In this document: positions 3,101-43,547 of the stretch, piece after piece
Layout: the number at the start of each line of letters is the position of its first letter
Numbering within the stretch: the stretch's first letter is position 1
NCBI RefSeq assembly: GCF_027111295.1
Contig: NZ_CP114287.1
Coordinates: forward strand, 4,092,001 to 4,156,000
DNA: 64,000 nucleotides
Reading direction: 5' to 3'
Source of the DNA: Flavobacterium gelatinilyticum
GTDB taxonomy: Bacteria; Bacteroidota; Bacteroidia; Flavobacteriales; Flavobacteriaceae
Notes under the pieces: model-generated
What the model was told of the DNA's origin: nothing
Databases searched by the model: none
Seen by the model: only the letters and a program-made list of their open reading frames with translations
Program-made: the position numbers and the translations under genes

Positions 3101-5245
3101 ATGAAAAAAATAGTTTTATTCTTGACTATGTGTCTCATGGCTTTTCCTGTAAGGGCTGATGAGGGAATGTGGTTCCTGATGTTTATCGAAAGATTAAATC
3201 ACAGGGATATGCAAAAAATGGGCTTACAATTAACAGCCGAAGAAATTTACAGTATTAACAATCATAGTTTAAAAGATGCGATTGTACAGTTTAATGGAGG
3301 CTGTACAGCTGAAATCGTTTCTAAAAACGGTTTGGTGTTAACCAATCACCATTGTGGTTATAATGCGATTGCAGAACTTTCGACTGCAGAGAAAAATTAT
3401 CTGAAAGATGGTTTTTGGGCAAAAGAAAAAAGTGCCGAAATGAAACCTAAATCTTTATACGTTCGTTTCTTTGTTCGTATGGATGATGTTTCTAAAAGAA
3501 TTTTATCAAAAGTAAATGATGCAATGACTGAAACTGAAAGAAATAAAATCATTCAGCAGGAAATTGCTTTGATCGAAAAAGAAAACAGCGAAAATGGAAA
3601 ATACACTGTTTCTGTTCGTCCTTTCTTTCAGGGAAATGAATATTACTATTTCGTTTACCAGGATTACACAGACGTTCGTTTAGTAGGAACACCGCCGGAA
3701 AGCGTTGGTAAATTTGGAGGAGATACAGATAACTGGGAATGGCCTCGCCAGACAGGAGATTTCTCTATGTTTAGAGTATATGCTGATAAAGACGGAAATC
3801 CAGCCGCTTACTCTAAAGACAATGTGCCTTTAAAACCAAAGCATTATTTGCCGGTAAGTTTAAAAGGGGTAAAAGAAAATGATTTTGCAATGATTTTAGG
3901 ATATCCGGGAAGAACAAACCGCTGGATGCCGGCAGGAGGAATTGAGCAGAATATTAAATTTGCTTATCCTGCATGGGTTGAAGGTGCTAAAACCGGAATG
4001 GATGTAATGAAAAAGTATATGGATAAAGATGCTACTGTTCGTTTACAGTACGCTTCTAAATATGCTTCGACTGCAAATTACTGGAAAAACCGTCAGGGTA
4101 TGATTGATGCTTTAACAAAAGCAGGAACAGTAGATACAAAAGCAGAGCAGGAAGATAAATTCTATGAGTGGGCAAGTAAACCGGCTAATAAAGAGAAATA
4201 CGAAAACGTAATTCCAACTATTAACGATTATTACAGAGAAACAAACTTAAAAGCGCGTCATGATAATTATTTAATGCAGCTTTTACGTACTTCAAGCTAC
4301 GCAACAGGTCCTGCTAATTTAGGAAATGCATTAATCGCATATTTCAATGAAAATGATGCTAAAAAAGCAGAAATGCTTCCTAAGATCAATTCAATGATCG
4401 AAAGTATTTACGGTGAATTCTATGAGCCGTTAGAAAAAGATATTTTAATTGCACAGTTAAACTTATATGCTGCAAAAGCTTCTGAATATGGTTTAGCAAC
4501 TCAAATTGCAGCTATGAAAGCGGCTAACAATGGTGATTTTACATCAGATGTTAATAAAGGTGCTGAAATGAGTTATTTTTCATCTAAAGAAAAAATTCAG
4601 GCATTTATGGCTAATCCAAAACCATTGGCAATTGTACATGATCCTTTGTATATTATTTCTAATGATTTATTGACTAAATACCGTACTAAAACAGACGATC
4701 AGTCAAAAGCAGATGATGGTTTTGCCATTGCTTACCGTAAATTAGTTGAAGGTTTAAGAGAATCAAAATTAAACGCAATTAAATATCCGGATGCCAACTC
4801 TACTTTAAGATTAACTTACGGAAAAGTACGCGCTTTACCTGCTGATCCTCGCAACGATGCTGCGATCAATAACTATACTACTATGGAAAGCATGGTGAAA
4901 AAGTATAAAGCAGGAGATCAGGAATTTGATTTGCCGTCTCGTTTATTAGAGTTGAACAAGAAAAAAGATTACGGACAATATGCTGATAAAGCAGGATATA
5001 TGCCGGTAAACTTTTTAACTGATAACGATATTACAGGAGGAAATTCTGGTTCACCGGTTCTTAATGGAAAAGGAGAATTAGTAGGAATTGCTTTTGATGG
5101 AAATATCGAAGCTATGGCCGGAGATGTTATTTTCGATTCTAATTTACAAAGAACTATTAACGTTGATATTCGTTATGTACTTTGGATTATCGATAAATAC
5201 GCGGGAGCTAAAAACATTATTGATGAATTGACGATTGTGAAATAA
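3101..5245 (+). CDS. S46 family dipeptidyl-peptidase, DPP7-like
   Basis: A serine peptidase that removes dipeptides from oligopeptide N-termini, probably periplasmic. A signal peptide ends near residue 19 (FPVRA-DEG). The trypsin-like catalytic residues can be placed at His84 (TNHHCGY), Asp220 (QTGDFSM) and Ser649 (GGNSGSP). The residue 18 after the serine is Gly667 (AFDGN). In characterised S46 enzymes Gly here goes with DPP7 (hydrophobic/broad P1) and Arg with DPP11 (Asp/Glu P1), so DPP7 type is inferred. The length of 714 residues fits the family. It is monocistronic, with a strong terminator at 5266. Confidence 0.93.
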   Translation: MKKIVLFLTMCLMAFPVRADEGMWFLMFIERLNHRDMQKMGLQLTAEEIYSINNHSLKDAIVQFNGGCTAEIVSKNGLVLTNHHCGYNAIAELSTAEKNYLKDGFWAKEKSAEMKPKSLYVRFFVRMDDVSKRILSKVNDAMTETERNKIIQQEIALIEKENSENGKYTVSVRPFFQGNEYYYFVYQDYTDVRLVGTPPESVGKFGGDTDNWEWPRQTGDFSMFRVYADKDGNPAAYSKDNVPLKPKHYLPVSLKGVKENDFAMILGYPGRTNRWMPAGGIEQNIKFAYPAWVEGAKTGMDVMKKYMDKDATVRLQYASKYASTANYWKNRQGMIDALTKAGTVDTKAEQEDKFYEWASKPANKEKYENVIPTINDYYRETNLKARHDNYLMQLLRTSSYATGPANLGNALIAYFNENDAKKAEMLPKINSMIESIYGEFYEPLEKDILIAQLNLYAAKASEYGLATQIAAMKAANNGDFTSDVNKGAEMSYFSSKEKIQAFMANPKPLAIVHDPLYIISNDLLTKYRTKTDDQSKADDGFAIAYRKLVEGLRESKLNAIKYPDANSTLRLTYGKVRALPADPRNDAAINNYTTMESMVKKYKAGDQEFDLPSRLLELNKKKDYGQYADKAGYMPVNFLTDNDITGGNSGSPVLNGKGELVGIAFDGNIEAMAGDVIFDSNLQRTINVDIRYVLWIIDKYAGAKNIIDELTIVK

Positions 5246-5447: not shown

Positions 5448-8400
5448 TTAATCAACCGTAACTCTGATTCCTTTTGTGTGGCTTGCAAATTCCGGAGCGT
5501 ACATGCTTTGAATCGTTGTGATTCCGTTTGAGAATTCACCGCTGTTGTTTACACGAATGTCGTATTCGAGGATATAAGTTCCTTTTTTTATTCGATCAAA
5601 GAAGAAATGTGTTGCAGCATCTTTTGTACTCATATAATATCCTAATCCATCTTTGTATTTATATTCCGAAAGAACATTTACAGGTTCAAAACAAGAAGCC
5701 CGCATATCTTTTAAATGAATATATTCTACATCTTCTCTGGCGGTAATAATTAAACGGACAGTAACTAAATCCCCTGTTTTTAAATGATTTTTAGCCGTAA
5801 TTTTTTCCAATTGATTTCCTTCTAAAGTGTTTTTCTTTAAATACAATTCTTTGGAAAGATTTAACCCTGAACCCGAATCATTTTTTATTTTTTCCAAATC
5901 TTCAAAATACTGCCAGTACACACCGCCATAACCCGGAACTTTAGATTTGTTTTCAATTTTTATCGAAGCCATTTCTTTTTTGATTTCATCGGCTTTCCAA
6001 TTTAGTTTGATGTAACCGGTTTCAGCTTCTTTTTCGTTTTCGGATAATTTTTTGGTCATGATTTTTTCATCTCCCAATTTTATAATTGTATTATCTTTTA
6101 TAGAAAGCCAGCCGGTTCCCTGCATCAATAAGGCATAAACGGCCTCTGTGGTTGATTTTGTGGTAGGCCAGTTTTTGGTTTGTTTATTTTTTAATAACCA
6201 GACTTTCATTGCATCTACAGATTTTGTGTCGTTATTTATTTCGGCGAAAGCCTCAATTAGTAAAGCCTGAGTTTCTATAGGCGCCTGATACCAATACCAT
6301 CCGGCTTTGTTGGCAATCCAGTACATTCCCCAGTCTTCGTTGTTCGAAGAAGTTTCTTTTAAACTCTCAAGAATTTTTTTCGCACTGTCTTTTTCTCCAA
6401 AACGGTTTAAAGTCAATGCAGCCAGTCCTTTTTCATAGATAGAATAGTTGAGCCAGTCTTTTTTAGCCGTTTCAAGATATAGTTTCGTCGCTTTTTTTAG
6501 TGTATCAGAAAGCGGATATTTCTCTAAATAAAAACTTCTGGTATATAAATAATGAAGATCAGAATACGGATTGAACCAAATGAGCTTTTCTGATGCTTTT
6601 AAATCTCTGGTTCTTGCTTGATGATATTCTAAAAATTTACGGTCTATAAAGGGTATTCCGGTTTTAGCAATTTCTTCAATTTTGGAATTATTAGTGTTTT
6701 TGCTGAGTCTTTCCAAATGTCCTAAACCAGCCAGAATATGTCTGGTAATATATTCGCTTTCGTCGCTTCCGTCAAACCAGCTAAATCCGCCTGAAGGTTT
6801 TTGCTTTTGTTTTAATTTTTCAAAAATACTTTCCTGTGAAGATTTCATTTTTTCTAAATCAAATAAAAGAGATAGGTTCTTTTTCTTTTCGTCTTCATTT
6901 TGTGCATCCTGAATCCACGGAGTTTCGGCGAGAATAAGTGATTTTAGCTCTTCGTTTTCTTCAAGTTTAGAAGCTGGTTTTCCTTTTTTTCTCCACTCTT
7001 CAAAAACAGCTGCAATTTTAGGATTATTTGAAATGATTTCAGTAGCCAAAGCATTCGCATAAAATCTTGCAAAAGTCTGTTCGGCACATTCATGCTCGTA
7101 TTCCATTAAATAAGGAAGTGACTGAATTGCCAGCCAGGTTGGGTTAGATGTATATTCAAAAGTAAACAGATGGTTTCTTAAAGTTGTCGACGTATTGTTT
7201 TTTAAGTTCTCAAACGTATATTCTTTCGCTGAATTCTCACGAACCCAAACCGGAATACTTTCTGTTACGAGCATAGTATTGGTTAGAACAGGAATTATAC
7301 TTTCTTCTCCATCCGAAAAATTACCAGCTTTGGCTGCGATTTTATACTGAACGCCTTGTAAACCTTCGGGAATTGTGATTTTCCAGTTTGCGATTGTATT
7401 TCCGTACGCCGGAATTGTAAAGTTTTTAATATTTTGTGCGTTGAGCATTTTTGCATCAATTGGTTCCATAGTTACGGCATCAAAAAACTGCAGACTGGCG
7501 ATTCCGGTTTTTGCTTCAGCGGTAACATTTGAGATCTTGGCACTTATTACAATGGTATCTTTTTCTCTTAGGAAACGCGGTAAATTCGGCATAACCATTA
7601 TTTCTTTTTGGGTAATTACGCTTTTCTCCAGATAACCTGAAACAGCATCTTTATTATGCGCCAGTAAACGAAGTTTCCATGCAGTCAAGGATTCGGGAGA
7701 AGTAAAGTTGAAACTTACTTTTCCTTTAGCATCGGTTCTTAAATCAGGAAAAAAGAACGCGGTTTCAGAAAGGTTTTTTCTGGCTTTAACCTGGTTTAGT
7801 TCCTCGAGGGCATTTTTGGTTGTGATGATGATTACGCCATTTGATGCTTTTGATCCGTAAGAAGCTAAGAGGTTTTTATCTTTTACCACAGAGATGTCTA
7901 GTATGTCTTGTGTTTTTAGACTTTTAAAATCAGTTTGAGAGATTATTTTGCCGTCAAGAATAAATAAAGGAGAAGAGTCTCCTATATCGGCGGCACCTCT
8001 AATTTGAATTCCCGAGGCCATTCCGCTAACCATTTCTGCCATAGAGCTACTGCTGAAAACACCTTCGTCTTCTTCTCCTTCTTCTATCACCTGCGATTTT
8101 ATTGCAACTACTGATGCGGTCATAGATTTTTTTTTCTGTGTTCCGTAAGCTGTAACAACAACTTCTTGTAATTTACTTGTGTTTTCGATTAAGCTGATGT
8201 CAATTGTTTTTTTATTACCTACTTTGACAGACTCAGTGTCAAAAGCTAAGTATGAAAATATAAGTTCTTCTTTTGGAGCAGCTTCAATTTCATAATAACC
8301 GTCAAAATCACTGCTTGTCATTCTTTGAGTTCCTTTAACGGTAATTGAAACCCCTGGAAGACCTTCATTATTTTGATCTGTAATAATTCCCGAAATCATT

Positions 8401-11400
8401 TTGGCATTTGCCGGTTTTGGGATTTTCTTATTCAGCTGTTTTTGATATTCCTGCTGCTGTTTATAAGAATTACTTGTTGTATTGAAATTGAATCCAAACC
8501 AGATTAATTTAAGCGCTTCATCTTTCAATATAATACGATTCGAACGTTTGTTTAAATTTTGAAACGGAATGTACAGTTTTTGTGAGCCAAGCATAGATTT
8601 AGTATTAACCTGCATGCTGTACGAGTCATTGATGTTTAGTAAATTCCAGTTCTGTTTGGTAAATTGATCCAAAGAGCTGTCGTACATAGATGCCAGAATT
8701 TCAGCTTCATTTTTTGTTCCTGAAGCATTTAGTTTAAATGACCAGTTTTCTTTAATTCCGGGTTCCAGTTTGTTTCTAAAAGTTTGTACATCGAATTTTA
8801 ATTCTGGAGTTTCTGATTTTAGAAATACATATAAATTGCTGTTGAATTTTTCGTTTTCAAAAACAGATTCAAAATTGAATGTAAGAGCATTTTGAAATTC
8901 TTTTTGAATAGGAATCTTAACCATAGTTTCATTGTTTTTCAAATGATAAGTTTCTTCTGAAAAAACATTGTTGTCAAAGCTTCCTGTGGCTGTTATGTAA
9001 AGTTCGGGAATAACGGAGGTTATTTTTAACTGAACAAAACCGTCTTTTTTTGGATCTGTATTGATTTGCGAAACAGTAAAAAGTTTATCGGTGTCAAATT
9101 TGTCTCTGCTTTGTTTGATGGTAACATTTGAAATGTCTTCTATTAAATTGTCATAACTGTCTTTTGCAGAAAAAACAATCTTGTAGTTTCCGGATTTATA
9201 ATCTGAAATAAAATCGAGAGGAAGGATTTTGTCTTTCTCTGTATCGATATTTTTAGAATAAACGAGTGTTTCTTTTATTTCCTCTTTTGGATTTTCGTTG
9301 TTTTCAAAAGGAAATAATTGTTCGAAGTCCTCTTTTGTGATGTCTTCAAAATCCGGTTTGTTGAAAATTCTGGTTTTAAATTTTGTTGATGACGGATTTA
9401 CAAAATAGATTTTCAGTTCTCCTTTTGCAGCTAAAAATTCATCGTTTAAATTGGTACTGTGAAGCTTTATTACGTTTTTATTTTTTGTTTCAATCTGAGT
9501 ATCAACAGCTGCTTCTAAGTCAAGATTATGATAGCCTGCTTTTAGAATTGTTTCCGCGTCATGTGTTTCACCGTTTATATCGGTAACTGAAACTTCAATT
9601 TCATAATTGAAAACAGGAAGGTTTTCTTTTATACTGTTTTTAGAAGGAAGAGCCGTAAAATCAATTGTAAATTTCCCCGAAGAATCGGTTGTAGTTTCTC
9701 CCTCAGCTATGGTTTCACGTTCTTCATAAGCATAAAAACGTCTTGAATAATTGGTAAAACGAGTTATTGAGTAGGTTACTTTTGCATTAGAAATACTGCT
9801 TCCTGCAAAAGCCTTAGCGCTTCCTTTTATTTTAACGGACTGGTTGATCTGATAATTTCCTTTCTTAGCATCAAATACAACTTCAAATTTAGGACGTTTG
9901 TATTCTTCAACCTTAAAAGCAATATGTGAATTTTCAAAATCAATATTTTCCCAAAAAGAATCTTTCTTTTTATTCTTATTATAATTTTTACTGTTTTTAT
10001 TAGTATTGGGTTCTTCGGCATTTAAGGTAAAGCGGCCTGTAAGTCCGTTGTTAGGAAGCATAAAATCGCCTGAAAATGATCCGAATTCATTTGTAGTTAC
10101 ATCAAATTCTGTAAAATCGTTTCCTTTTGCGTCATCAACGATAATTGTGAAAGTAGTATTGGGAACTACTTTTTTTGTTGCTTTATTTTTAAGAACAGCA
10201 ATTCCTTTGTAATAAACTTTTTGACCGGGACGATAAATAGCACGGTCAAGATATAACTCAACTTTTAGATTTGATAACTTTTCATCTTCCTCATATTTGT
10301 ATCTGCCATTGTACGGGATATAGCCTTTTTGAACAGAAAGAGTGTCATTCTCAGTTGTTATGAGAATAGGATCATTTCTGTAGTTTTCTTTTTTGTTAGT
10401 ATAAAGAGCAGTGCCGTTTTTGTTTGTTTTAATTTTAAAAACGTCATTTTTAATTACAGCATTTTCTACAGGTTTTCCGGTTTTTCGATCCACAACCTGA
10501 TAGCTTTCTCCTTTACTGCTTTGACTTGCCAGTGCAGTAAGGTTAGAAACAGTCATGGTTTCAAATGTATAAGTCTTTTTTTCTTCTGTATCTGAATCAC
10601 TTTCAAAACAAACTAAGTAGGATCCCTTTTTTAATTGAGGGAGCAGCACCTCGGTTGAATATTCAAAAAAGTCCTTTTTATCTTTAAGTACGTATAATTT
10701 TGCAGCCGAGGGTTGTACTTTTTGAATAATATCATTTCTGAGACTGTCTTTTTTTCTGCCGTATTTTTCTAATTCTAAAAGTTGTTTGTTTGCAATTTTA
10801 AAGAAAGAAATTTTTAAATGGGCAGCATTTTTATGTCTTATTAAAGCTCTCGTATTTTCCTGTTCATAAGTATATTTTTGAAGCTCGGCACGAAGTGATT
10901 TATAAAGTATATTTTCTTTTTTTTGATAGGCTAATCTGTAAGCATTTGATCTAACGCCGCTGTTCAGAATGCTGTCCAGTAAACTAATCGCTTTTATGTT
11001 ATAATCTGGATGTAATTCTTTTGAAGCATTTTGAGTGTAAAAAACTGCTTTTTCAAACTGTATTTTTTGAGTTAATGAAAGATCACTATTCTTTTTTTGC
11101 AGAGTATTCAGCGCATGGATGTAATCTTCGTTTACAACGAGCAGGTATTTTTTGCAGAATTCAATTCGGTTCCAAAGATTTTCTAAATCAGGATTGTTCT
11201 TTTCCTGTTTTTGATATAATTGAAGAACAGTTTTGATTCTCTCATTTGTTAGTAATCCAAAATCAGCATTTATAAAATCATTAGATTCTCCTAGCAGAAC
11301 TTTTTTATATTCATTATAATCATTTTTTTGAAAAGTATATATGTCAATTCTGCTTGTACAAATACTGATATTTTCTTTTACAATAAAGTCAAAGAGATTT

Positions 11401-11942
11401 TGCTTTTTGAATTTTTCTAAAACAGGATAGTCAAAAATCAATTCATATTTTGTTAAAGGAGTATTTTTTAAGATATTTTCATTCTCCAGACTTTGCTTTA
11501 AAATGGCAGTAATCTGATTAGTTAAATTCTTTTCGGTCCAGGTTAGGAAATTATCATCAATAGTTTCAAGGTTGGTGCGCTGCCTTATTTTATATTCATT
11601 TAAGCTGAAATAATCATTTAGACATTTAGCATAAACTACATTTAAAATAGCTTTTGAAGGAATAGATGCTTGATCTTTAATCGATTTGAGGTTGTCGATA
11701 ATCTTAGCCTGTGCATTTTCTTCGAGAGTCTGGATGTATTTTGACTGAAAGAAAAAGCATTTTATCATTTGTACTTCATCTTTTTCTAAAACAGCTTTTT
11801 TGTAGATTTTCTCCACTATTTCATTTGCTGATTTTATTTTGCCTTCGTTTTCAAAAGTCATAACGTTCTTCCAGTTTCTATCATTTTGCTGCGCAAATGC
11901 AATTGTAGAAAGGAATAGAAAAGCAAGTAATATTTTTTTCAT
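5448..11942 (-). CDS. alpha-2-macroglobulin family protein with internal SusC-like CarboxypepD_reg/plug cassette
   Basis: An exported protein of 2164 residues; bacterial relatives trap attacking proteases. The signal peptide is MKKILLAFLFLSTIAFAQ and there is no lipobox. A helical N-terminal part runs to about 480. An MG2 domain (YRPGQKVYYKG, about 560-640) and further macroglobulin domains follow. Residues about 1182-1376 are foreign to the family: a carboxypeptidase-regulatory-like domain (GIITDQNNEGLPGVSI), the SusC linker EVVVTAYG (about 1259) and a TonB-receptor plug (LFILDGK ... GVIIITTK). The A2M domain resumes (FFPDLRTDAKGKVSFNF), then the thioester motif CAEQ at 1619-1622 and C-terminal domains. 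No barrel follows the plug, so this is not a TonB receptor. The cassette sits just before the A2M domain, where the bait region would be expected. Confidence 0.92.
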   Translation of the reverse strand: MKKILLAFLFLSTIAFAQQNDRNWKNVMTFENEGKIKSANEIVEKIYKKAVLEKDEVQMIKCFFFQSKYIQTLEENAQAKIIDNLKSIKDQASIPSKAILNVVYAKCLNDYFSLNEYKIRQRTNLETIDDNFLTWTEKNLTNQITAILKQSLENENILKNTPLTKYELIFDYPVLEKFKKQNLFDFIVKENISICTSRIDIYTFQKNDYNEYKKVLLGESNDFINADFGLLTNERIKTVLQLYQKQEKNNPDLENLWNRIEFCKKYLLVVNEDYIHALNTLQKKNSDLSLTQKIQFEKAVFYTQNASKELHPDYNIKAISLLDSILNSGVRSNAYRLAYQKKENILYKSLRAELQKYTYEQENTRALIRHKNAAHLKISFFKIANKQLLELEKYGRKKDSLRNDIIQKVQPSAAKLYVLKDKKDFFEYSTEVLLPQLKKGSYLVCFESDSDTEEKKTYTFETMTVSNLTALASQSSKGESYQVVDRKTGKPVENAVIKNDVFKIKTNKNGTALYTNKKENYRNDPILITTENDTLSVQKGYIPYNGRYKYEEDEKLSNLKVELYLDRAIYRPGQKVYYKGIAVLKNKATKKVVPNTTFTIIVDDAKGNDFTEFDVTTNEFGSFSGDFMLPNNGLTGRFTLNAEEPNTNKNSKNYNKNKKKDSFWENIDFENSHIAFKVEEYKRPKFEVVFDAKKGNYQINQSVKIKGSAKAFAGSSISNAKVTYSITRFTNYSRRFYAYEERETIAEGETTTDSSGKFTIDFTALPSKNSIKENLPVFNYEIEVSVTDINGETHDAETILKAGYHNLDLEAAVDTQIETKNKNVIKLHSTNLNDEFLAAKGELKIYFVNPSSTKFKTRIFNKPDFEDITKEDFEQLFPFENNENPKEEIKETLVYSKNIDTEKDKILPLDFISDYKSGNYKIVFSAKDSYDNLIEDISNVTIKQSRDKFDTDKLFTVSQINTDPKKDGFVQLKITSVIPELYITATGSFDNNVFSEETYHLKNNETMVKIPIQKEFQNALTFNFESVFENEKFNSNLYVFLKSETPELKFDVQTFRNKLEPGIKENWSFKLNASGTKNEAEILASMYDSSLDQFTKQNWNLLNINDSYSMQVNTKSMLGSQKLYIPFQNLNKRSNRIILKDEALKLIWFGFNFNTTSNSYKQQQEYQKQLNKKIPKPANAKMISGIITDQNNEGLPGVSITVKGTQRMTSSDFDGYYEIEAAPKEELIFSYLAFDTESVKVGNKKTIDISLIENTSKLQEVVVTAYGTQKKKSMTASVVAIKSQVIEEGEEDEGVFSSSSMAEMVSGMASGIQIRGAADIGDSSPLFILDGKIISQTDFKSLKTQDILDISVVKDKNLLASYGSKASNGVIIITTKNALEELNQVKARKNLSETAFFFPDLRTDAKGKVSFNFTSPESLTAWKLRLLAHNKDAVSGYLEKSVITQKEIMVMPNLPRFLREKDTIVISAKISNVTAEAKTGIASLQFFDAVTMEPIDAKMLNAQNIKNFTIPAYGNTIANWKITIPEGLQGVQYKIAAKAGNFSDGEESIIPVLTNTMLVTESIPVWVRENSAKEYTFENLKNNTSTTLRNHLFTFEYTSNPTWLAIQSLPYLMEYEHECAEQTFARFYANALATEIISNNPKIAAVFEEWRKKGKPASKLEENEELKSLILAETPWIQDAQNEDEKKKNLSLLFDLEKMKSSQESIFEKLKQKQKPSGGFSWFDGSDESEYITRHILAGLGHLERLSKNTNNSKIEEIAKTGIPFIDRKFLEYHQARTRDLKASEKLIWFNPYSDLHYLYTRSFYLEKYPLSDTLKKATKLYLETAKKDWLNYSIYEKGLAALTLNRFGEKDSAKKILESLKETSSNNEDWGMYWIANKAGWYWYQAPIETQALLIEAFAEINNDTKSVDAMKVWLLKNKQTKNWPTTKSTTEAVYALLMQGTGWLSIKDNTIIKLGDEKIMTKKLSENEKEAETGYIKLNWKADEIKKEMASIKIENKSKVPGYGGVYWQYFEDLEKIKNDSGSGLNLSKELYLKKNTLEGNQLEKITAKNHLKTGDLVTVRLIITAREDVEYIHLKDMRASCFEPVNVLSEYKYKDGLGYYMSTKDAATHFFFDRIKKGTYILEYDIRVNNSGEFSNGITTIQSMYAPEFASHTKGIRVTVD

Positions 11943-43482: not shown

Positions 43483-43547
43483 AAGGTAGAATATAGATTA
43501 TCGGAGGATTAGACCTGAATTCATAATCTCTACCTTAAAATTTTTTT
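43483..43547 (+). promoter_or_regulatory. stem-loop upstream of rpsD, possible S4 leader
   Basis: AAGGTAGA (43483-43490) and GATTAT (43496-43501) pair with ATAATC (43523-43528) and TCTACCTT (43529-43536): a 14 bp stem with a five-base bulge and a 21-base loop containing GGAGG and CCT. AAAA and seven T follow just before the rpsD ATG at 43551. S4 is an autogenous regulator in several phyla, so an S4-binding leader or attenuator is plausible. The rpsK-rpsD gap of 91 bases is unusually long. Confidence 0.6.

Follow-up and report, generated by a model that had tools for sequence, protein, structure and literature searches.

A SusC-like N-terminal module at the predicted bait site of an alpha-2-macroglobulin from Flavobacterium gelatinilyticum

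In a 64,000-nucleotide stretch of the Flavobacterium gelatinilyticum genome (NZ_CP114287.1 of assembly GCF_027111295.1, positions 4,092,001-4,156,000; hereafter, the window), a minus-strand open reading frame (ORF) was found to encode an alpha-2-macroglobulin (A2M) of 2164 residues, into which the N-terminal module of a SusC-type outer-membrane transporter is built just where the protease bait is expected. We consider the chances about even that this A2M is of type I, soluble and periplasmic, and has the module as its bait, diversified by recombination and possibly acting as a SusC decoy. The reading of the module as bait is based on its position, predicted disorder and variability, and on the conserved thioester. 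An A2M-SusC fusion was not found described in the titles and abstract beginnings of the papers listed by searches of the open-licence PubMed Central literature, a limited scope that gives no proof of absence. The features of the gene, in window coordinates, are the following:

5448..11942, minus strand: complete A2M gene, 2164 residues (ORF call, Pfam)
11892..11942, minus strand: signal-peptide-like N-terminal stretch without lipobox, residues 1-17 (by eye from the sequence)
7863..11615, minus strand: block swapped among Flavobacterium species, about residues 110-1360 (approximate limits, transferred from the identity profiles of other species)
9993..10256, minus strand: MG2 domain, residues 563-650 (Pfam)
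8667..8687, minus strand: MYDSSLD anchor motif preceding the bait, residues 1086-1092 (sequence, comparison of the A2M set)
8169..8396, minus strand: SusC-type N-terminal extension (NTE), CarboxypepD_reg-like, residues 1183-1258 (Pfam, NCBIfam, predicted structure, Foldseek)
8154..8171, minus strand: Ton-box-like LQEVVV, residues 1258-1263 (sequence, compared with the BT1763 Ton box VDEVVV)
7980..8165, minus strand: stretch predicted to be disordered, likely the bait proper, residues 1260-1321 (predicted local distance difference test, pLDDT, <50)
7815..7979, minus strand: plug core with the GVIIITTK end, residues 1322-1376 (NCBIfam, predicted structure)
7509..7763, minus strand: A2M domain (PF00207), residues 1394-1478 (Pfam)
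7077..7088, minus strand: CAEQ thioester motif, residues 1619-1622 (sequence)
5490..5867, minus strand: bMG10 domain, residues 2026-2151 (Pfam)

The insert spans residues 1182-1376 and consists of the NTE, the Ton-box-like segment and the C-terminal core of a plug, after which the A2M domain resumes. These limits and this domain order, which an earlier note on the same DNA had put forward, were confirmed by Pfam, NCBIfam and a sequence match in the PDB. CarbopepD_reg_2 was assigned by Pfam to residues 1183-1263 (6.5e-17). Positions 2-220 of the 981 positions of the NCBIfam SusC/RagA model TIGR04056 aligned to residues 1182-1392 (2.8e-52) and the SusC signature TIGR04057 was matched at residues 1346-1376 (8.4e-9), both matches being below the curated cut-offs (178 bits versus 368 and 35 bits versus 46, respectively). 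The closest solved relative by sequence was the SusC homologue 8aa4 (3.1e-22), with RagA also among the PDB matches. An outer-membrane barrel, 22-stranded in SusC, was not found in the window protein, in agreement with the earlier note and as evident from the SusC profile match, which stops at position 220 and is followed by the A2M domain.

The excerpted text of PMC7782687 gives Pfam 13715 as the SusC NTE, and this domain of SusC/RagA transporters was found in the insert by Pfam and by Foldseek. From the same excerpt, the Ton box of BT1763 is VDEVVV at residues 81-86 and Ton-box mutants are defective in growth on levan. In the AlphaFold model of residues 1176-1395, a confident NTE and a confident plug core flank the stretch 1260-1321, which is predicted to be disordered and holds most of the Ton box together with the N-terminal half of the plug; within the plug, folding in the model is confined to the C-terminal core. 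Comparing the insert model with the PDB using Foldseek revealed the NTE of SusC 9hfj as the top match (75 columns, root-mean-square deviation (rmsd) 0.8 Å). The previously proposed plug ending in GVIIITTK stands in part: its end carries the SusC signature, whereas the Pfam Plug model PF07715, listed for many orthologues, was not matched by the window protein with E values up to 1, and a folded state is predicted for the C-terminal core alone. With the N-terminal part of SusC/RagA transporters, the window protein shares NTE sequence and predicted fold, a Ton-box-like segment and the SusC signature; it differs from them in lacking the barrel, in a plug whose N-terminal half is reduced and, by prediction, disordered, and in embedding the module in an A2M.

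Beyond the insert, MG2, A2M and bMG10 were all matched above the Pfam cut-offs and, by these domains and the CxEQ motif, the protein is classed as a type I A2M, with protease capture as its predicted activity. Its nearest relatives are Flavobacterium proteins. Among the 120 Flavobacterium homologues listed in the first search, all 120 keep CxEQ; 115 exceed 1990 residues, 55 of which have the NTE. An assembly chimera or two split genes, the latter a concern raised before with regard to long-read assembly, is ruled out by the single, uninterrupted frame and by many full-length homologues of the same domain order. The thioester motif is intact as originally described, with CAEQ beginning at residue 1619, and the fold of the thioester domain matches those of complement C3, Salmonella A2M (SaA2M) and E. 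coli A2M (ECAM).

In the A2M set, a YDASLD-like motif and the A2M domain, which starts with an ETAFF-like sequence, enclose a variable segment that contains the insert in the window protein, and the Pfam A2M bait region domain matched 65 of 109 fragments cut immediately ahead of the A2M domain. A model of residues 1041-2164, based on 62 sequences, had a mean pLDDT of 69 and a predicted template modelling score (pTM) of 0.54, and Foldseek ranked Salmonella A2M (4u48) first, followed by other thioester proteins including C3 and ECAM. Using VIA-align, pairing with SaA2M began at model residue 352 (protein residue 1392) and SaA2M residue 959 (rmsd 10.0 Å) and that with C3 at model residue 350 and C3 residue 744 (rmsd 8.9 Å), i.e., directly after the insert, the start of pairing being approximate owing to the high rmsd and a low-confidence stretch. 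Because anchor motifs on both sides, bait-domain matches and the start of the structural alignment agree, the insert is placed, by sequence and model, at the bait site upstream of the A2M domain, which bears out the position surmised in the earlier note. A disordered, exposed bait ahead of the A2M domain, as in type I A2Ms, is likewise predicted. According to an excerpt of PMC4498604, bait residues 923-942 are not visible in elastase-cleaved ECAM.

The window protein resembles the type I bacterial A2Ms ECAM (YfhM) and SaA2M in its MG domains, bait position, CxEQ thioester domain and overall fold, but it carries a SusC module at the bait, has no lipobox, lacks pbpC among the neighbouring ORFs seen and has a front block that was exchanged between species. 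It also recalls complement C3 and C5, thioester proteins in which a small folded domain, the anaphylatoxin domain, is inserted where the bait would be. That domain is unrelated to the SusC module and is cut off as a signal in C3, of which there is no evidence here.

To describe recurrence of the module, a phylum sample of 296 genomes was used, 132 of which gave an A2M match, and 110 loci were taken (108 best-ranked rows plus the two loci of the own genome). The profile of the A2M-domain region matched 109 of these, with 63 scoring above 90 bits and representing the window protein's kind (type A). A SusC N-module profile built from 15 N-modules of the own genome and the window matched 25 of the 63 type A bait windows at E<0.01, while among the controls a match was seen for one of the 219 windows on the N side, for none of the 173 on the C side and for none of 630 shuffles. 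Among other A2M types, 6 of 46 bait windows matched at the same threshold; four of them hold the full module and belong to a distant lineage (L092, L095, L096 from Hymenobacter aquaticus, and L105). A related full module was also found in Aegicerativicinus, Lutibacter and Polaribacter; the lists for Hymenobacter and for these three genera (best 120 of 551 and best 120 of 7980) came from queries containing the insert and are biased for architecture counts.

Labelled elements in the 63 type A baits were the Ton box only (12), the NTE (five), NTE and Ton box (four), all three elements (four), the plug (three), NTE and plug (two) and Ton box and plug (two). On a type A tree, at least 11 changes between SusC-labelled and unlabelled baits were counted, the trees throughout being quick searches and the patterns and profile thresholds simple. 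By these comparisons, SusC N-terminal sequence recurs at the bait site throughout Bacteroidota, the A2Ms concerned belonging to no fewer than two distant lineages; in some baits it amounts to no more than a Ton box or short motifs in scrambled order. A one-off, lineage-specific accident is ruled out by the recurrence across lineages and the repeated label changes. The term cassette, used in the earlier note, suits the module here but not its relatives, among which A2Ms with and without the insert revealed no single fixed cassette.

Bait length and content are highly variable among A2Ms, and recurrence could also arise if the bait tolerated nearly any insertion and illegitimate recombination dropped in functionless pieces of abundant SusC genes, of which the own genome has many (39 SusC signature matches above cut-off). 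Such neutral capture is, in our estimate, unlikely. A full-length SusC profile was made from 20 own-genome SusCs, with 235 of its 1017 positions (about 23%) constituting the N-terminal part, and was compared with 135 baits, in which six genomes are included twice (L059/L211, L074/L213, L082/L214, L061/L215, L067/L217, L080/L220). At E<0.01, all 40 matches, in 38 baits, fell into the N-terminal part and none into the barrel, contrary to what indiscriminate capture would give; at looser thresholds, two barrel matches were found at E<0.1 versus 0.6 expected from shuffles, and three at E<1 versus 7 expected. The absence of barrel pieces could also stem from folding constraints on them, whereas per-column counts showing Ton-box and NTE positions to be well conserved within the NTE class are a further point against functionless insertion. 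Motif patterns applied to these baits beside the profile were chosen after inspection of the baits and are descriptive only.

Exchange of the front block was analysed at 80 Flavobacterium loci (best 80 of 284), 68 of which could be divided into N part, bait and C part; the other 12 had short or missing ORFs or, in the case of L175, L183 and L184, no anchor. At the 68 loci, presence or absence of the NTE switches at least 16 times along the C-part tree versus 2 times along the N-part tree, from which the bait is excluded; a count of 21 on a larger set (78 of 80 rows) includes shortened ORFs, and 16 is preferred. A tree of the adjacent genes mpl and radC (63 rows) gave 17 changes, and the mpl/radC distances gave Spearman correlations of 0.68 with the C part, 0.44 with the N part and 0.24 with the bait. 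A single clade of the 28 NTE-less proteins was rejected by the C-terminal data (approximately unbiased (AU) test, p 8.3e-7).

For seven chosen sister pairs differing in NTE, the synonymous divergence (dS) of the N part was at least twice that of the C part in six and not computable in the seventh, high dS values being close to saturation. F. hydatis and F. sp. KMS have 97% identity and a dS of 0.24 in the C part, 60% and 1.22 in the N part, and 41% identity in the bait. Identity profiles of seven pairs placed one limit of exchange at about codon 110-120 and the other close to where the plug core ends; they are sharpest in L172/L176 and L166/L167, while L145/L181 diverge mainly from the bait onward. 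Some same-class pairs lack such a jump in divergence from C part to N part (L140/L142, L131/L135, L198/L199, L167/L171); others show it (L146/L149, L183/L184, L145/L163, L138/L143), so exchange also occurs within NTE classes. As judged from these sequences, front part and bait have been exchanged between Flavobacterium species, and the thioester half tracks the neighbouring genes more closely. Silent donor copies were not found for five front blocks, which matched nothing outside the gene in the Flavobacterium locus flanks (up to 10 kb), and a second copy of the front block was not found in the own genome. The ratio of nonsynonymous to synonymous divergence (dN/dS; 18 pairs) was 0.11-0.82 in the bait versus 0.04-0.11 in the C part, and a bait ratio that is below 1 yet relaxed relative to the C part would also suit neutral capture.

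With the module as bait, a protease entering the periplasm would cut within the disordered stretch at about 1260-1321 or in the linker ahead of the NTE; the cut would free the bait-bearing MG domain, the CAEQ thioester would be exposed and the protease covalently trapped, and exchange of front block and bait would diversify the triggers of the trap. Acting as an integrated decoy, the SusC-like bait would imitate the periplasm-exposed SusC N-terminus, so that a receptor-attacking protease would spring the trap as well. That the pieces come only from the N-terminal part of the receptor, and that they recur, suggests that they mimic sequences which proteases encounter in the periplasm. That SusC-like baits are favoured for this imitation is a tentative proposition and, by itself, the least certain step. 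Of the three ideas in the earlier note, that of a new bait fared best, gaining from same-site SusC sequence in many A2Ms, from hypervariability and from recombination, with its function being deduced; nothing specific was found in favour of a sensor.

Integrated decoys of plant NLRs are defence proteins into which the domain of a likely target has repeatedly been built. By analogy only, repeated integration of a likely target's domain was found among the A2Ms compared, given two A2M lineages and the at least 11 label changes; unlike for plant NLR decoys, we know of no attacker of the SusC N-terminus. It is possible, if rather doubtful, that soluble A2Ms of Bacteroidota use integrated decoys, repeatedly built from SusC N-terminal pieces in at least two lineages, and that Flavobacterium front and bait alleles exchanged against a more vertical thioester half complete an arms-race pattern. 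A receptor-derived bait that comprises the N-terminal part only and passes from species to species suggests a particular threat, namely proteases reaching or attacking TonB-dependent receptors. This bears on what bacterial A2Ms defend against and is directly testable in the tractable and non-pathogenic Flavobacterium johnsoniae, whose orthologue (L139) has the full module.

Several results weigh against the reading of the module as bait and possible decoy. No SusC label was found in 31 of the 63 type A baits, making the module dispensable for an A2M, and bait dN/dS never exceeded 1, which indicates relaxation and does not support positive selection. The model of residues 1041-2164 is of moderate quality only, and the best 50 Foldseek matches listed contained no SusC plug for the plug core, whose identity comes from sequence only. 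Lastly, of the 14 type A proteins that lack CxEQ, 8 have a labelled SusC element, an argument against covalent trapping being its sole use; in an excerpt of PMC5764988, P. aeruginosa MagD, an A2M without thioester, nevertheless traps protease. Type A A2Ms without CxEQ include L076, L078, L059, L061, L067, L074, L080 and L082. SAEQ replaces CAEQ in two Flavobacterium proteins, and the motif is lost in six proteins of a family designated f2, most of which keep SusC elements in the bait.

The Ton box raises the alternative that the bait is a docking site for the C-terminal domain of TonB, by which the soluble A2M would be kept at the TonB complex of the inner membrane, next to active receptors, until bait cleavage releases it. 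The strict Ton-box pattern is indeed concentrated in type A baits (19 in 12,915 bait residues versus 1 in 114,540 elsewhere), and the 12 baits with Ton box only contain neither NTE nor plug. Proteins without a lipobox-like start have SusC features more often than those with one (35 of 72 versus 2 of 26, namely L048 and L073, both doubtful; Fisher p 1.4e-4, from a simple pattern and ignoring kinship), as if a tether could replace the lipid anchor. The six type A proteins of f2 in the sample all lack CxEQ, yet five retain the Ton box. Across f2, the Ton-box pattern was found in 15 of 27 baits, with 23 matches in the 31,587 residues outside the bait of the same fragments, and several baits hold plug-like pieces (L-x-G-x-V-x-G-V, IRG) in varying order; this set has 30 loci, with L224, L227 and L238 giving no bait and the fragment L234 counted among the 27 but excluded from the 26 used in the 135-bait set.

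Against TonB docking, the loose pattern detected a Ton box in just 54 of the 120 Flavobacterium homologues listed; its absence from the other 66, roughly half, weakens the idea as a shared function. The Ton box is missing from 23 of the 110 proteins of the third search with NTE and plug (loose pattern), and both NTE-only and plug-only baits exist, so that plug pieces and NTEs occur without it. It was found in 3 (loose) or 1 (strict) of the 61 Flavobacterium homologues that have a plug and lack the NTE. We judge TonB docking improbable; the SusC/TonB contact suggested in the earlier note may exist, but TonB contact does not hold up as a common function.

Docking might instead involve another periplasmic partner, e.g., an assembly or signalling factor, which binds the NTE or plug core and recruits the trap. 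Consistent with this, chain E of the BAM complex from F. johnsoniae (9n2d) is among the matches of the insert model, BamP appears as a weak family match (1.3e-4, far below cut-off), and SusC pieces without a barrel are encoded at other places in the own genome, in a vWA protein, in a protein beside an ECF sigma factor and in an M56 peptidase. However, many orthologues lack the NTE, many lack the plug core, and no partner gene was found in operon arrangement with the A2M gene; we regard this as the least probable of the alternatives. The A2M gene is flanked by a convergent S46 peptidase gene and divergent TPR and mpl genes, none being co-directional with it, which rules out a partner operon; the three neighbours are present in 67, 58 and 77 of the 80 Flavobacterium loci, respectively. 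The S46 peptidase gene lies at window positions 3101-5245, tail to tail with the A2M gene.

The SusC N-module also emerges as a portable periplasmic part. At about 4.576 Mb of the own genome (L111:2-1624, minus strand), a vWA-type protein (PF12450, VWA) starts with the same module of NTE, Ton-box-like segment and plug signature, representing a second SusC fusion without barrel. Next to it, a 329-residue frame without Pfam match (L111:1679-2665, minus strand) has a plug-core-like end (TIGR04057, 1.5e-6, below cut-off); it adjoins an ECF (extracytoplasmic function) sigma factor (L111:2644-3192, minus strand) and looks like an anti-sigma factor. An M56/BlaR1-type peptidase at about 0.29 Mb (L113:1086-2678) also has a plug-core-like end (TIGR04057, 2.7e-5, below cut-off). 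The genome also encodes a second A2M, which is of a different type and has a lipobox-like start and CVEQ (G000:C1:2859205-2859471; L002, L114). The sole Rfam match above gathering score in the window was an S4-Flavobacteria ribosomal protein leader at 43496-43528.

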